From positions 1 through 27,230 of the IMG/VR virus record IMGVR_UViG_3300033571_005471: 27,230 nucleotides of DNA; one strand, 5' to 3'. Positions 17,723-24,548 of the stretch are shown here, piece by piece. The stretch is from a virus. The stretch's first letter is position 1. The number at the start of each line of letters is the position of its first letter. The notes under the pieces were generated by a model. That model saw only the letters and a program-made list of their open reading frames with translations, was not told the origin of the DNA and searched no databases. The position numbers and the translations under genes were made by a program.

Positions 17723-18186
17723 TGCAGCGCCAGATTCCCAGAAGTCGGCAGCGCTCCCACCAACACCTGGCTGAGCATCCTGCCGCCTGGTGAGTTGACG
17801 GCATCGAGCGGGCTGGCGAGCTGCAGCTTGACGATGGGCTCATTTGTGTCGCCCTGCACCTGCCGCGTTGCCCAGTATTCAACCGTCAGCAGCGAGCCGA
17901 GCGACTGATCAGCGCGATTGATCTTGACCGATCGCACCTCCAGTAGCCATTCGCTCTGGCTGGCCTCGGCAAACACGTTCAGGGTTAGGGCGGACGTTGC
18001 TGCGGCGATCACCGCCTCTGATCGATCGCCGCCACGGGTCGATGAGTTGGTCGCCACCGCGACGGGAAGATAGGGGTAGCTCTGCCCGTTGTGCGTGATG
18101 GTCTGACCAATAAAGTAGTTCTGGGCCAGCCAATCGGTGTAGGTTCCATTCCGGCGCTTGAACCGCAGGAAGTTGCAGATCTCCAT
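17719..18186 (-). CDS. L-like minor tail protein, 155 aa
   Basis: It sits directly after the tape measure, where lambda-like phages encode the minor tail protein L that starts the tail tip. The sequence is beta-rich (ITHNGQSYPYLPVAVA, SALTLNVFAEASQSEWLLEV, SLLTVEYWATRQVQGD, IVKLQLASPLDAVNSPGG), in line with tail-hub proteins of this group. Lambda gpL binds an iron-sulfur cluster; this protein has a single Cys (C4), so no such cluster is expected. The ATG at 18186 overlaps the tape-measure TAA by one base. The call rests on order and fold pattern. Confidence 0.7.
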   Translation of the reverse strand: MEICNFLRFKRRNGTYTDWLAQNYFIGQTITHNGQSYPYLPVAVATNSSTRGGDRSEAVIAAATSALTLNVFAEASQSEWLLEVRSVKINRADQSLGSLLTVEYWATRQVQGDTNEPIVKLQLASPLDAVNSPGGRMLSQVLVGALPTSGNLALQ

Positions 18187-21100
18187 TAGCTCAGACCCGC
18201 CTGGCGCCTGATGGTGACGTTGTTCACGTTCCGTTTGTGCGCCAGCGCGGCGCCTTGCTTGGCAGACTCGCGGCCGATCCGTTGCGCCTCATCTTTGGTG
18301 ACAAAATCGAGCTCGCCAATTTGCACGGTCTCGAATCGGATAAGGCCATCAACGCTGCCCACACCCATGCCAGCAGCGCCCATGCCGCCGTCGATGCCGC
18401 CGCGCTGGAATGGCACGCTCAGGCCCTCCATGCCCCGCTGGAACGGCACGCTCAGGCCGCTGGTGGATGCTGCAGCGCTGCCCTGCTGGGATGATGTGCC
18501 AGCGGTGGGGGCAGTGGCCTGGAATGGCACGGACAGGCCCCGCAGGCTGGCGCTGTTGATCGATTGGAGCGCCTCGGTGGCCTCAGCCGGGATGATGCTG
18601 CCGGCTTGGTAGGGGACGAACAGTTCGGGGCCGTTTTCGCCGACTGGGTAGGGGCGGCCTGCTGAGACGCCGCCGCCTAGGGCGCGGGGGAGCGCCGCAG
18701 GAAAATCGGTCATCGTAACGGCCGACGATGAATCCGCATATCTGCCAACATCGGCCATGTTGCCGCCACTAGGCGCAGCACCCGCAACCGCCCCAAGCGC
18801 CTTAAGGATGGTCTGCAGCACGATCATCGTCATCTGTTTGGCGATGATTTCTGCGGCCATCTGCGCAAAGTTCTGGGCCACGTCTTGGAAGAATCCGGCC
18901 AGCACCTCTCGCGCACTCGCGGCGCCGGTTATCAGTTCCTGGAACGCATTGCCAAACGCGCCGCCAATGCCATCGGCGCTGCGGCCCGCCAGCTCGGAGA
19001 TGCTGACCATTTCAGCCAGATCGGCTTTAAGTTGGCCGATCTGCAATGCAATGGCAGCCGGCTGGTCTAATTGCGCTGCAACGGCTTGGTCAATAAGCTC
19101 AATTTGCCTCGCATATAGGCCATTCATTTTCTCCAAGGCTGCAAGGTTCGCTGCCTTGTCTTCCGAATCTTGGATTGCATCAATGCCTTTTCTCAACACA
19201 GCAATCACAAGTGCCTGATCTTGATAGATCTTGGCCTTTTGAAGCTCGGCTTCAATCACATTACTGCTTACGCCTTCCATGGTTAGGCGGTTGCGCAGCT
19301 GCAGCTCCTTTGCATTGTTTTCCAGCTCTTCATTCTGATCAATCAGCCCTTGAGTTAGCTTCTGCGTAAATTCTATTCTATCAAATTCGCGCAGTTCGCC
19401 AATTTGCTCTTTGATCAATGCCAACTCTTTTTCTGCCTGCTTCACTCGCTCGCGGGCCTGGGCAATGTCGCCCTCTCCCTTCACGTCCCGCACGGGGGCC
19501 GGCTGAAACCCTGGCATGTCAGCGCCGGGGAGCAGCCGTTGTGACATTGGCACTGCGGCGCCGGTTGCAGCGCCGCTCCAACCGCTGATCCATGGCCGCA
19601 CTATGTTCTGTTCAAGCGCCCGCCACGGATCGCCACCGTTTAGAGCGTTGACGTGGCTGGTTACATGAGTGCCAAATGTTCGCCCGGTTTCACCTTGAGT
19701 GCCAAGAATGCCCCCCTTTGCAAGATCCATTCCAGGCGATACGTTCACCTTGTCAAAATGACCGAGCAGCATTTCATACCGCTTGCCGTCAACGCCGATG
19801 AATTCGCCTGTGATCCAGTTGCCGTACCCCTTGCCGCTGGCACCCCGCCCTGAGCCTTGGAATCCGGTTTTAATATTGGTCAGCGCGACAGGCGCGGGGA
19901 CCGCAGCACCGACGCCGCCAGGTAGCACCACGTCATAGCCCGACTGCTCAGCATCCGGGTCACGTGTCCATCTGGTTGTAGCACCGCCTCTGAATCCGCT
20001 GCCCGCCCCGACAGCGCCCCCTGCACTTCCCATCACCTGCGCTCTATTCTCCAGCGCATCAATCCGCTGGCGCTCGGTCATGTTCGCCAAGGTTTGCTTG
20101 TGGACGGTTTCGGCCTGCTGCAGTGCGCGGCGTGCATCGTTCACGGTTCGCTGAGCTTCTGCAACCCGTGAGGTGCCTTCGCTGAATCCCATCATGAATT
20201 CAGTGAGCATCTTGGCCGCTGCCCGAGCTGGGCCCATTAGACCCTCACTCCAGAGATTGAGCGCCCTTGATTGGATAGTTTGAGTAAATTCAAACTGCTT
20301 CAATGCAAGCGATTTGCTGTTTTCATACCGCTGATTATCCAGCTCGATTGCATTGCTTTGCAGGCCTTCATTTGTCTGCAACTGATTTTCTGCAAGGCGA
20401 GCCTGCATCCGAATTTGCTCGGCCTCGTATTTGCGGCCGGCAGCTTCGGCGGCTTTGGCGGCTTTTTCGGCGGCTTCGCCACCAGCCGTGGTGCCGTTTG
20501 TAGTGCCACCCGTAAGCGGTGGGATAACTGGCGCAGGCGGCACGCCAGGCATAGCCAGCGCCCTTTCGTTTTGCTGCCTTAATCTGTAATCAGCTCGCTG
20601 CTGTTCTATATTCCGCTGGCGCATTTCCGCCATCATGCCTTGCTGCGTTAATGGGTTGAGCCCCATTGCCCGCACCGCAGCATTAGCATTACGCGCAAAC
20701 TGCGCCTCCCTGTCCCTTGCCCCGGCGGTATTATTTGCCTCATCAATCAACCGCTGAATCTCGCTAACTACAGCGGTCGCTTGCGTTAATGCCCACTTGA
20801 AAACAGGCTCTAGCGTCTTGCCGATTGTTTGCGCCAAAACCTGCACAGAATCGGTCAGGGTTGACATTCGACCCCTTAAGGTGTCGCTTTGCGCAATAGC
20901 ACCATTGGCGTACTTTCCGCCACTATCGGTCAGCTTAATCAATGCAAATTCAACAGCTTCAGCGCTGATTTGCCCCTTTTCAAGCGCTTTTTGAAACTCA
21001 ATGCCTGTTAATCCATACTCTTTACGCAAGACCTGCTGTAGCGCAACGCCACGCTCTTGGAACTGGAGCAGCTCTTCGCCCTGCAGTCTGCCCTTTGCTT

Positions 21101-21779
21101 GAACCTGGCCATAGGCGGTGGCTAGGCCGCCAAGCTCCGCACCAGTGGCGCCGCTGACATCGGCTAGGCGCCTGGTAATGTCAACAACCTTTTCTGTCTC
21201 AACGCCAAACGCCTGAAGGCGCTTTGCCGTGTCAATCAGCTCTGTGCTGGTGAACGGAGTAACCGCGCCAAGCTGCTGCAGCTGCTGAACTATGTCCTTT
21301 GCTCGCTCGGCGCTCCCTGTCAGCACCTCTAGGCTTCTGGTTTGCGATTCAAGCTCAGCTGCGTTGCCAAATACGAACCTGACGGCCTCAATCCCTGCGT
21401 AGGCCGCAATTAGGCGGCCCGCGGCAGCTGCCATGCCGGCAATCCTTGTATTGGTCTGGCTTGCCGTTCCATCTAGTCCTTGGAGCCTCCCCTCCAGCCG
21501 CTGAATCTCAGCCCCGTACTTCTGGAACTCCCGGCCACCGATCCGAGCCTGTTCCTGCAGCCCGCGCAATGCCGCCACGCTGGTTCGGATCCCGGCAATC
21601 GTGCCGTCATTGGCGCGGGCGAGCTGCAGCGTTGCGGTGCGCAGCGCTGTTTTCTGCTGCTTGGTTACCTGCGCGGCCTGGCCCAGATCCTGCAGCGACC
21701 GTTTCACCCGATCGATATTCCCGCCGCCCTTCACGTCGGCCGAGATCTGGATGGCGGTTTCCATGCTCATCCGGGCCAT
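18186..21779 (-). CDS. Tail tape measure protein, 1197 aa, with degenerate M23-like insert
   Basis: It sets tail length and helps DNA passage. The N-terminal helices (RVKRSLQDLGQAAQVTKQQK) lead into the conserved tape-measure region (about 130-330; VTPFTSTELIDTAKRLQAFG, GATGAELGGLATAYGQVQAK). Long Gln/Ala/Glu-rich coiled coils follow. Near 600-730 is an M23 peptidase-like segment: LLGHFDKVNVSPGMDLAKGG, GTQGETGRTFGTHVTSHVN. The last motif has two His separated by three residues instead of one, so activity is doubtful. A hydrophobic stretch lies near 985-1015 (MTMIVLQTILKALGAVAGAA). The C-terminus repeats GLSVPFQ three times. The gene starts 38 bases after late element B and follows a terminator-like hairpin. 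Confidence 0.95.
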   Translation of the reverse strand: MARMSMETAIQISADVKGGGNIDRVKRSLQDLGQAAQVTKQQKTALRTATLQLARANDGTIAGIRTSVAALRGLQEQARIGGREFQKYGAEIQRLEGRLQGLDGTASQTNTRIAGMAAAAGRLIAAYAGIEAVRFVFGNAAELESQTRSLEVLTGSAERAKDIVQQLQQLGAVTPFTSTELIDTAKRLQAFGVETEKVVDITRRLADVSGATGAELGGLATAYGQVQAKGRLQGEELLQFQERGVALQQVLRKEYGLTGIEFQKALEKGQISAEAVEFALIKLTDSGGKYANGAIAQSDTLRGRMSTLTDSVQVLAQTIGKTLEPVFKWALTQATAVVSEIQRLIDEANNTAGARDREAQFARNANAAVRAMGLNPLTQQGMMAEMRQRNIEQQRADYRLRQQNERALAMPGVPPAPVIPPLTGGTTNGTTAGGEAAEKAAKAAEAAGRKYEAEQIRMQARLAENQLQTNEGLQSNAIELDNQRYENSKSLALKQFEFTQTIQSRALNLWSEGLMGPARAAAKMLTEFMMGFSEGTSRVAEAQRTVNDARRALQQAETVHKQTLANMTERQRIDALENRAQVMGSAGGAVGAGSGFRGGATTRWTRDPDAEQSGYDVVLPGGVGAAVPAPVALTNIKTGFQGSGRGASGKGYGNWITGEFIGVDGKRYEMLLGHFDKVNVSPGMDLAKGGILGTQGETGRTFGTHVTSHVNALNGGDPWRALEQNIVRPWISGWSGAATGAAVPMSQRLLPGADMPGFQPAPVRDVKGEGDIAQARERVKQAEKELALIKEQIGELREFDRIEFTQKLTQGLIDQNEELENNAKELQLRNRLTMEGVSSNVIEAELQKAKIYQDQALVIAVLRKGIDAIQDSEDKAANLAALEKMNGLYARQIELIDQAVAAQLDQPAAIALQIGQLKADLAEMVSISELAGRSADGIGGAFGNAFQELITGAASAREVLAGFFQDVAQNFAQMAAEIIAKQMTMIVLQTILKALGAVAGAAPSGGNMADVGRYADSSSAVTMTDFPAALPRALGGGVSAGRPYPVGENGPELFVPYQAGSIIPAEATEALQSINSASLRGLSVPFQATAPTAGTSSQQGSAAASTSGLSVPFQRGMEGLSVPFQRGGIDGGMGAAGMGVGSVDGLIRFETVQIGELDFVTKDEAQRIGRESAKQGAALAHKRNVNNVTIRRQAGLS
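18410..18535 (-). repeat. GLSVPFQ repeat in the tape-measure C-terminus
   Basis: Three near-identical DNA units (plus strand: ctggaatggcacgctcaggc, ctggaacggcacgctcaggc, ctggaatggcacggacaggc) encode GLSVPFQ each time; two lie close together and the third about 85 bases away. This suggests recent small-scale duplication in the tail's distal end. Confidence 0.6.
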
Positions 21780-21819: not shown

Positions 21820-21829
21820 CCCAAACAGC

Positions 21830-21859
21830 AGAAAGGCCCCAGTCTCCCAGGGCCTTTCT
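21830..21859 (-). terminator. Terminator-like hairpin between chaperone and tape measure
   Basis: A perfect 10-bp inverted repeat, AGAAAGGCCC ... GGGCCTTTCT, with a 10-base loop in the 130-base gap. On the minus strand the second arm ends TTTCT and is followed by GCTGTTTG, a modest U-rich tail; on the plus strand the arms read the same way. It would end or attenuate the transcript from the tail-tube/chaperone genes. Confidence 0.6.
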
Positions 21860-21909: not shown

Positions 21910-22721
21910 CTATAAATTCTGCCGCTCCACCTGGCGGACCGCACCCAGGTACTCCCGCTCCAGCAGCCGCAGGTCCTCCAGCAGCCACACCCGGTCACCG
22001 CGCTTCACGCCCTCATCTCTGGCGCACTGAATGAACACCCCGTAATCGAGGCCCACGGGTCCGGCCATGCTTACTCGCCACTGGGTCTGCATCTTCAGGA
22101 ACCAGGCCAGCGCTTCGCAGTTCTCCGGCAGGATCCCGAACGTCTTGGGCCGCTGCTCTACCTCGGGCACCTCCAGGCCGAACACGGCTGCAGCGTCTGC
22201 CGCATCCTTGCCGTCGTCACTATCGCTCTTCGCGGCGCCAGCGAGGAACAGCGCCGCGTCTATGAGTTTTTTGCTCGGAAGCCTCCAGCCTTCGCTGCTG
22301 ACTTCTCAGTAGGCCGGCCGACGCTTTCGGTCCACGCATTGAAGATTGCCGACGCGGCGCCTTGCATCTGCAGCATCCTGGCCTTGGTGGCTGGCGTGAA
22401 CTCCAGCGGCTGATCATCCTCGCCCACCACCTCATCACCCCAGCCACAAAGCACCTCAGCTGCCAGGTCCTGATAGGTGCAGGGGAGCGGCTCGGTGACG
22501 GGCTGCAGGTCGGAGCTGCCCCGGTAGTCCCTAAGCGCCTCGTAGCGCTTGACTGTGGCCACCACTAGCGCGTTGTGCTGTTCGTTCAACTCATCGCACT
22601 GTTCTTGATCGAGCATCCGAAAATGCGCGGTGAAGGTGTAGGCTTTCTTTACTCCTGATTTAGACGGCAGGTCAACACTTACCGGCCACTCGATGTGGTC
22701 CGGCTGATACAGGTGAAACAT
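21910..22721 (-). CDS. Tail assembly chaperone GT fusion by -1 frameshift, about 270 aa
   Basis: Predicted -1 frameshift product: 152 codons of the G-like frame, slip at A AAA AAC (22266-22272), then 118 codons of the overlapping frame. The extension starts LIDAALFLAGAAKSDSDDGK and includes ENCEALAWFLKMQTQWRVSM, GPVGLDYGVF and WLLEDLRLLEREYLG. This pattern fits small phage proteins next to tape measures (DUF1799-like, from memory). In lambda the equivalent gpGT brings tape measure and tube protein together during assembly and is absent from the virion. Separate translation of the second part from GTG 22185 (91 aa) is possible but less likely, since its reading frame continues open back to the slip site. 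Confidence 0.8.
22231..22286 (-). promoter_or_regulatory. Programmed -1 ribosomal frameshift signal
   Basis: Three parts in order on the minus strand. An SD-like GGAGG lies at 22286-22282. Nine bases later is the slippery heptamer A AAA AAC (22272-22266), in frame with the G-like gene and followed by TCA TAG. After a 7-base spacer there is a stem-loop with 8-bp perfect arms, CGCGGCGC (22258-22251) and GCGCCGCG (22238-22231), and a 12-base loop. The layout matches the E. coli dnaX signal (upstream SD, A AAA AAG, downstream stem). Confidence 0.82.
22260..22721 (-). CDS. G-like tail assembly chaperone, zero-frame product, 153 aa
   Basis: The short form of the chaperone pair, lying between tail tube and tape measure as in lambda. 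It begins MFHLYQPDHIEWPVSVDLPS, a beta-rich opening, then helices (QEQCDELNEQHNALVVATVK, YQDLAAEVLCGWGDEV, ATKARMLQMQGAASAIFNAW). The ending GGFRAKNS stops at TAG just after the slippery site. Many G-like proteins have such a beta N-terminus, a WGDEV-like helix and a variable tail. Expected to coat the tape measure during assembly in excess over the frameshift form. It starts 5 bases after the tail-tube stop, without a clear Shine-Dalgarno, so coupling is likely. Confidence 0.82.
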   Translation of the reverse strand: MFHLYQPDHIEWPVSVDLPSKSGVKKAYTFTAHFRMLDQEQCDELNEQHNALVVATVKRYEALRDYRGSSDLQPVTEPLPCTYQDLAAEVLCGWGDEVVGEDDQPLEFTPATKARMLQMQGAASAIFNAWTESVGRPTEKSAAKAGGFRAKNS

Positions 22722-22726
22722 GAGGA

Positions 22727-23920
22727 TCAGAAGAAAACGAGGCGGGTTTCGTCGTTGCCAGCTGCGGACTTGGGCAGCGCGGTGAATGGGATCTGCAACA
22801 TGCTGTTCCCGTCAGAATCAGAGAACGAGAGGTCGCCGCTGATTGCGGCCTTGGGACAGAAGAAAATGGAGCTCTCGGTAGCCGTCGTGCCCTGTTGCAC
22901 AACGAACGGGCCATCGCTCGCGCCGCTGTTGTCTGCTGCGGCGGTAAAGAAGTTCTTCGCCGACACAGGCGGGTTTTCGATCGTGATCGTGCCGTTCGGG
23001 TTGGGGCGGTCGGTGATGCGGGCTTGAGGCTCGCAGCCGATCAGTGAGCGGAACACGGTTGACAGGCCCCAGTCAAACGTGAACCCTTCAGAGCAGGGAT
23101 TAAAGCCCTGGAACCGCAACGCCTTGGTGTGGGTCGGGGTGACGGGCACCGGCTCGGCCTGGTTGCTGTAGACGAATCCTTCAGCGCTCCTAGCGGTGGG
23201 GGTGGTGTAGCGGCCAACGCCCGTAATCGTGAACGTGCCGTAACCGTTCAGAGTGCTGTTGAGAACCGGGCTGCCGCGGAATCCTTCGATTCGGTGAACA
23301 TTGGCGCCGTCTTTCACCGCCACGATGGTGCAGCTGCTGCCGTTGCCAAAGGTGCTGATCGGCTGGAGCAGGGACAGTGCGGGGATCTTGTAGCCCACTG
23401 CGCCACCAGTGAATGACGCCGTAGAGGGAACTACGGTCACCTGCCGGCTGGCGCCGTCGTGCGCCACGATCACGCCCTTATGGCCGGTGTTGGCGCCGCT
23501 GGTGATCTCGATTGGCAGGCCCAAGTAAGCGTCCGTTGCAGGGTTGCTGCCGCCTAAGTCCGCCAGGGTGAGGGTGTTGGCGCCGCCTGCGGTGGCGGTG
23601 CCGGTCAGCTCGGCCATTGCCGAGACGTTCATACCGGCTGCCTGCAGCAGGGGCGTGAACCGGGGCGCAGTCGCCGCAACGCCAGAACCGCCCCACTCGA
23701 ACGTAATCGTTACCGCCACGTGTTCATTGGTCAGCGGCTGGCGGTCGGCGCCTAGGAACCCTTTGATCAGGGCACGCTCCACGCGAGTACCGGTGATCGG
23801 GTTCACCTCCAACGACACGATCTTCACCGCGTCGGTATTGGCGATCGAGCTGGCCAGGGTGCCGTAACTGGTTTCGGCCTTCACCAGCGCGAAGCTGTTG
23901 CGAATCAGGAGAGCTGTCAT
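22727..23920 (-). CDS. Major tail tube protein, 397 aa
   Basis: It forms the non-contractile tail tube. The N-terminus (MTALLIRNSFALVKAETSYG) and the following SLEVNPITGTRVERALIKGF and EHVAVTITFEWGGSGVAA have the beta pattern of siphovirus tube proteins. A segment near 110-180 (GLPIEITSGANTGHKGVIVA) looks like a small inserted beta domain seen in other phage structural proteins. The C-terminal half returns to tube-like strands (TFTITGVGRYTT, LRFQGFNPCSEGFTFDWG). At 397 residues it is longer than lambda gpV, in line with the insertion. ATG 23920 overlaps the 47-aa gene's stop (TGATG). Position before G/GT and tape measure supports the call. Confidence 0.85.
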   Translation of the reverse strand: MTALLIRNSFALVKAETSYGTLASSIANTDAVKIVSLEVNPITGTRVERALIKGFLGADRQPLTNEHVAVTITFEWGGSGVAATAPRFTPLLQAAGMNVSAMAELTGTATAGGANTLTLADLGGSNPATDAYLGLPIEITSGANTGHKGVIVAHDGASRQVTVVPSTASFTGGAVGYKIPALSLLQPISTFGNGSSCTIVAVKDGANVHRIEGFRGSPVLNSTLNGYGTFTITGVGRYTTPTARSAEGFVYSNQAEPVPVTPTHTKALRFQGFNPCSEGFTFDWGLSTVFRSLIGCEPQARITDRPNPNGTITIENPPVSAKNFFTAAADNSGASDGPFVVQQGTTATESSIFFCPKAAISGDLSFSDSDGNSMLQIPFTALPKSAAGNDETRLVFF

Positions 23921-24082: not shown

Positions 24083-24101
24083 TACCCTCAGGCTATGGAG
24101 C
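24083..24101 (-). promoter_or_regulatory. Late element C (candidate promoter) before the 47-aa and tail-tube genes
   Basis: Minus strand GCTCCATAGCCTGAGGGTA: core starts 36 bases before ATG 24063, and the TAG stop of the tail-terminator-like gene is inside the element, as in element A. Seventeen bases match element A exactly. TAGCCT is a possible -10; the -35 position (ATAACG) is not shared with the other copies. Confidence 0.55.
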
Positions 24102-24548
24102 GGCGTTGATTGCGTTATCTCGGGTTCGGTAGCGGATCAGGAAGCGCTGCCCGATCCATCCGGCGGTTGCATCGGCCGCCTCGTACTGCGGCGCCCAGCC
24201 ATCGGGCTGCACGTCATGCGCAAGGCCACCGAGGGTCCGGTCGCTCATCATGCGGGTATGCACATCCACGCCGATTGGGTCCGCTAGTTGGTCGGGCACG
24301 TCGCCGCGCACGTAGGTTTCGATCAACACCGGCAGCGCCTGGTCGAGTCGCCCCAGGCTCGCGCCGGTGGTGCGTGGGGCATTAACCGGGTTGTCCTCGC
24401 CAGGGCTGACGATGAGCGCCGGGGCCTCCGACCTAGAGAGCGCCTGCACCCGGCTGCGGTGGATCCTCGTGCCGACTTGCACCGTGCCGGGCAGGGTCAC
24501 GGTGGCGATGTGATTGAGAATCTGCTCTCGGATGCTGGGGGCGGTCAT
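24093..24548 (-). CDS. Tail terminator-like (lambda gpU-like) protein, 151 aa
   Basis: It probably caps the tail tube on the head side and stops its growth. It has the family's usual length and opening helix (MTAPSIREQILNHIATVTLP), then PALIVSPGEDNPVN, the strand LPVLIETYVRGDVPDQL, the helix LADPIGVDVHTRMMSDRTLG and a final strand RFLIRYRTRDNAINAAP. Order terminator, tube, chaperone, tape measure follows the lambda U-V-G-GT-H layout. ATG 24548 lies 3 bases after the previous stop; its own TAG stop lies in late element C. The assignment is from pattern and synteny. Confidence 0.75.
   Translation of the reverse strand: MTAPSIREQILNHIATVTLPGTVQVGTRIHRSRVQALSRSEAPALIVSPGEDNPVNAPRTTGASLGRLDQALPVLIETYVRGDVPDQLADPIGVDVHTRMMSDRTLGGLAHDVQPDGWAPQYEAADATAGWIGQRFLIRYRTRDNAINAAP

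Follow-up and report, generated by a model that had tools for sequence, protein, structure and literature searches.

In Escherichia phage T1 the gene pair ST40/ST39 (Drexlerviridae; PHROG 569/680) carries the heptamer A_AAA_AAC in frame by the stop codon of G, with a stem 7 nt downstream. In Stenotrophomonas phage Silvanus the corresponding end reads A_AAA_AAC TGA and is followed by a 10-bp stem, also at 7 nt, and the record annotates the tape measure chaperone as a joined frameshift product. In the dnaX gene of E. coli an SD sequence, a heptamer and a stem follow each other in this order, and the very efficient shift shortens the product. The slippery site of phage lambda is G_GGA_AAG. A -1 shift near the end of lambda G fuses T to it just 5' of the tape measure gene, and lambda is listed among the low-level frameshift sites (PMC5009743). 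According to the same review, -1 frameshifting is widespread in tail chaperone genes and some tailed-phage sites function without stimulators (PMC5009743). The heptamer of dnaX is A_AAA_AAG; A_AAA_AAC is only a weak slippery sequence in E. coli (PMC4066793, PMC5009743). A T1-like phage was described with a tail chaperone frameshift (PMC4319613), phages with an experimentally confirmed frameshift are listed in PMC5313236, and two HK97-like tail chaperone genes gave 6-7% in a reporter test (PMC3711429). AAAAAAC and GGGAAAC slippery sites are reported for the pre-tape measure chaperones of the Caulobacter phages phiCbK and Colossus (PMC3556154). At the place of the tail chaperone, an A_AAA_AAC site is published for Loki (PMC5313236), and an AAAAAAC or GGGAAAC site possibly for Dragolir (PMC6003738).

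The DNA analysed here, referred to as the window, stems from an uncultured tailed phage and comprises positions 1 to 27,230 of the virus record IMGVR_UViG_3300033571_005471, and all genes concerned are read from its minus strand (Table 1). With a probability of about 0.94, the locus is predicted to contain a programmed -1 ribosomal frameshift of a T1-type tail assembly chaperone gene pair. The site is well preserved and clear but not exceptional, as frameshifts of this kind have been described in lambda, T1 and many further phages. The first-pass annotation had described a G-like frame ending with an in-frame A AAA AAC, the upstream GGAGG, a GC-only stem and a -1 frame of 118 codons that ends before the tape measure gene. 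This observation was confirmed in all its parts, each element being found again on the minus strand, with the -1 frame stopping at 21910, ahead of the tape measure gene, whose start is at 21779. The stem arms CGCGGCGC and GCGCCGCG enclose a loop of 12 nt. The T-like frame would be read only after the shift.

Table 1. Features of the G/T locus and its neighbours in the window
Feature	Position	Strand	Remarks
Tail terminator	24093..24548	-	phrog_4204, E=6e-30
Major tail protein position, 397-aa ORF	22727..23920	-	by position only
G-like tail assembly chaperone ORF	22260..22721 (22721 to 22260)	-	153 aa; end GCA AAA AAC TCA TAG
SD-like GGAGG	22282..22286	-	9 nt 5' of the heptamer
Slippery heptamer A_AAA_AAC	22266..22272	-	in the G frame; TCA TAG next
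0-frame stop TAG	22260..22262	-	one codon past the heptamer
Stem 5' arm CGCGGCGC	22251..22258	-	7 nt past the heptamer
Stem 3' arm GCGCCGCG	22231..22238	-	pairs with the 5' arm; 8-bp GC stem
T-like -1 frame	21910..22266	-	118 sense codons (22266-21913) and stop 21912-21910
Tape measure protein gene	18186..21779	-	1197 aa; PF20155 TMP_3, E=8e-25; TIGR02675

The heptamer AAAAAAC occurred once per strand in the 27 kb window. In-frame XXXYYYZ motifs were present at 20 of the 7,048 codon positions of the window genes, so that the chance of finding one among the five codons that close an ORF is about 1.4%. A composite pattern of SD and heptamer, drawn from the relatives, matched the window a single time and was absent from 100 shuffles.

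The locus shares its gene order with T1, as well as the in-frame A_AAA_AAC by the stop of G and the stem at 7 nt, and the similarity within the T family runs through Silvanus-type relatives. T1 differs in a TAA stop right at the heptamer, in a stem of other sequence and in having no upstream GGAGG. Silvanus has homologous G and T genes, but its proteins are only distantly alike and it has no SD-like element. phiCbK and Colossus belong to another phage group, and the passage on their slippery sites describes no stimulators (PMC3556154). The placement of the shift, which the first-pass annotation had likened to the point where lambda makes gpGT, agreed with gene order and family profiles; the slippery site itself is a different one. 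The designation 'dnaX-like' held for the layout of SD, heptamer and stem and their similar spacing, but not for the heptamer, which is A_AAA_AAC here and A_AAA_AAG in dnaX, nor is the product shortened as in dnaX: the shift lengthens it. The statement that the three stimulatory parts are rarely so clear was overstated for the stem, since comparable stems and spacings were found in T1, haarsle, SO-1, Silvanus and Marilyn; the SD-like element does seem to be a peculiarity of this clade.

The genes follow each other in the order terminator, major tail protein position, G/T and tape measure gene. The major tail protein was assigned by position alone, as the 397-aa ORF had no family match in Pfam, PHROGs or NCBIfam. 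In profile searches the G-like protein matched phrog_569 (E=2e-9), and the T-like protein matched phrog_680 (E=7e-22) and PF08809 DUF1799 (E=4e-14). With both proteins matching these profiles, G and T are predicted to be a T1-type tape measure chaperone pair (PHROG 569/680, DUF1799). PHROG names both families 'tail length tape measure protein'; they were taken to be chaperones despite this label because of their position and the annotated relatives. The same two families matched G and T of Silvanus, S-CBS1 and Marilyn, and G of PS-1 and R656 matched phrog_569. The family phrog_17368 is fusion-like, its first half matching G-like and its second half T-like proteins. Structure models of moderate confidence were compared with a viral fold library (BFVD); the G model matched tape measure chaperones, and the top match of the T model was the pre-tape measure chaperone of Caulobacter phage Colossus. 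The moderate-confidence G model gave no match in the PDB at E<=0.001, and G alone gave no tblastn match in the phage collection. A DNA search of this collection yielded only a 69% match to Synechococcus phage S-H1, in part of the tape measure region. Neither of the two alignments found a relative when scanned against contigs of bacterial and archaeal genomes.

T and the tape measure gene are separated by 130 nt, and this gap contains a strong hairpin (AGAAAGGCCC..GGGCCTTTCT) at 21829-21859 on the minus strand. In close relatives this gap measures only tens of nucleotides and is without the hairpin. A terminator is annotated at the same place in the T1 and Silvanus records. The C-terminus of T reads VERQNL in the window and SIA in several close relatives.

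For the relatives, 71 loci with G were collected from IMG/VR, and further loci were added through alignment searches. Three of them (L001, L072 and L152) represent the virus of the window itself or a copy identical to it and are not independent, and one match (L081) was excluded from the context set as a second, unrelated AAAAAAC on the same contig. The heptamer was in frame in the window and in each of the 67 relatives whose G gene has an undamaged end, and it was present in 47 of the 47 distinct related contexts. Two loci were rejected as counter-examples. L054 has five A instead of six, so that G runs on in a third frame (163 aa) instead of entering T, and is probably a homopolymer assembly error or a broken copy; in L070 the G frame is broken upstream, and the locus was treated as a sequence error or a broken copy. 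The 0-frame stop of the relatives stands either right after AAC (TGA, TAA) or as TCN TAG, with the heptamer and the -1 frame constant. The frameshift reading is supported because these two are fixed while the stop varies between two forms.

T was conserved as a protein from its first residues, KKLIDAA, across the relatives. No ATG, GTG or TTG occurred in the first approximately 28 codons of T in nearly all relatives, and in the window there was none before codon 30; an exception was L064, with a GTG in the -1 frame 5' of the heptamer. These data bear on the explanation that T forms a gene of its own, started from GTG 22185 or from an ATG further on, without any frameshift and with an incidental heptamer. 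A GTG does exist at codon 30 of T, and T figures as a short ORF in its own right in several relatives' GenBank records. Such a start would nevertheless leave about 28 codons untranslated that are conserved as protein, and it would have to lie still further in for two relatives of one sub-lineage (L023 and L027), whose first start is found 47 codons in, at codon 48 of T. As a -1-frame stop lies directly 5' of the heptamer in these two, their -1 frame can be entered at the heptamer only. With the constraint on synonymous sites of heptamer and stem described below, a separate T gene is very improbable. Relatives lacking the heptamer and using separate starts did not appear among the collected loci with an intact G end; the heptamer was kept in all of them, and the N-terminus of T was without a usual start codon in nearly all.

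Synonymous changes per codon were compared with their expectation in 42 sequences, using pairs from a minimum spanning tree; this is a simple procedure in which the tree edges are taken as independent. The codons GCA AAA AAC showed 0 synonymous changes, about 20 being expected. The GGA of the SD-like motif showed 2 instead of 9.3, the codons GCG GCG CTG of the 5' arm 0 instead of 21, and GGC GCC of the 3' arm 0 instead of 12. The loop codons TTC CTC GCT were normal with 15 changes compared with 17 expected. The constrained elements constitute the lowest 7-codon windows of both genes, with z values of -3.5 and -5.1. Selection acts on the nucleotides of the heptamer, the SD-like GGA and both stem arms; the loop evolves normally.

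In stability the 40-nt stem region ranked within the top 1.5% of tail-gene windows, and the stem was more stable than synonymous recodings with p=0.035 in the window and p=0.002 to 0.11 in most relatives. The wider 91-nt fold was not unusual (z = +1.07), and its minimum free energy structure uses other pairs. The stem therefore looks special only locally and comparatively. Covariation in the stem was slight, two pairs having a compensatory change, and shuffles were not clearly exceeded. Synonymous shuffling of the window by itself gave no significance for the SD-like element (p=0.28), whose GG.GG pattern is in part imposed by two conserved adjacent Gly residues.

In remote phages of the G/T family, X_XXA_AAC was located directly at the G stop in 12 of the 14 phages checked, T1 included. 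The G end consisted of A_AAA_AAC and a stop in T1, ESP2949-1, TR1, ACG-M12, haarsle, SO-1, S-CBS1 and Silvanus, and of G_GGA_AAC and a stop in PS-1, R656, Marilyn and Kintu. The T1-like phages HBM00 (L238) and VAC10 (L242) had no classical heptamer at the G stop near 610 (CCAAAAGCAC, GCAAAAGTT); they may use another slippery motif. The occurrence of G_GGA_AAC in four phages in place of the A run also speaks against slippage of RNA polymerase on this run as the cause of the frame change. In favour of such slippage, the run comprises six A, and one relative (L068) has seven; six A is, however, short for slippage of a bacterial polymerase. The phase exactly fits tandem tRNA slippage, and the SD and stem elements are under constraint. 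Polymerase slippage is hence very improbable, like a separate T gene.

A stem about 7 nt past the heptamer recurred in T1, haarsle, SO-1, Silvanus and Marilyn, and at 6 nt in S-CBS1. Stability beyond synonymous recoding was found with a Fisher p=3e-8 for 13 phages without the window, a set in which some phages are interrelated and which includes S-H1 of uncertain kinship. No such stability was detected in Kintu, PS-1, TR1 and ACG-M12. An SD-like element was not general among the remote phages (p=0.74) and seems to be particular to the window's clade. S-H1 was rejected as a homologue; it has A_AAA_AAC, but its proteins belong to other families (phrog_20784, phrog_337). In S-H1 (L237, 3101-3651) the A_AAA_AAC stands one codon before the gene stop with a large tail gene just downstream. 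This site is possibly another tail chaperone frameshift and is annotated as separate genes.

The frameshift might be real and the stem and GGAGG nevertheless be non-stimulating by-products of an Ala/Gly-rich, GC-rich coding sequence. The unremarkable 91-nt fold, the shuffling result for the SD and the low covariation fit such an origin, as does the existence of tailed-phage sites without stimulators (PMC5009743). Against it stand the two arms with 0 synonymous changes where about 33 were expected, next to a normal loop, the 2 changes compared with 9.3 in GGA, and the reappearance in remote phages of a stem at a distance of about 7 nt from the heptamer (Fisher p=3e-8). An origin as by-products is accordingly unlikely, though less so than the two explanations considered above.

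The first-pass claim of a G/GT-type chaperone frameshift with SD and stem was thus supported by gene order, family profiles, heptamer conservation, the conserved N-terminus of T without a start codon and the synonymous constraint on each element. In the proposed frameshift most ribosomes would terminate at TAG and release G (153 aa). A minority would probably be paused, both through base-pairing between GGAGG and 16S rRNA and through the stem 7 nt past the heptamer, whereupon the Lys and Asn tRNAs would slip from AAA AAC to AAA AAA. The slipped ribosomes would read 118 more codons, which would yield a fused GT protein of about 270 aa. On the model of lambda, both G and GT would bind the tape measure protein, the T domain would recruit the major tail protein, and the slip rate would set the ratio of G to GT. 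The stimulators have a plausible role here because A_AAA_AAC is inefficient in E. coli (PMC4066793), from which the host of the window's virus may differ. For T1-type chaperones as a group, a stimulated shift can be proposed tentatively, in which a weak X_XXA_AAC is combined with an immediate 0-frame stop and a stem at about 7 nt, to which this clade would have added the SD-like element; the share of GT would then differ from the roughly 3% of lambda.

An unannotated group of uncultured phages gains a correct gene model, consisting of G and a GT fusion and not of a missing or truncated T. The sequences of the relatives also form a set for comparison that shows selection on heptamer, SD and stem individually and is useful for gauging the contribution of stimulators at weak heptamers in bacteria.
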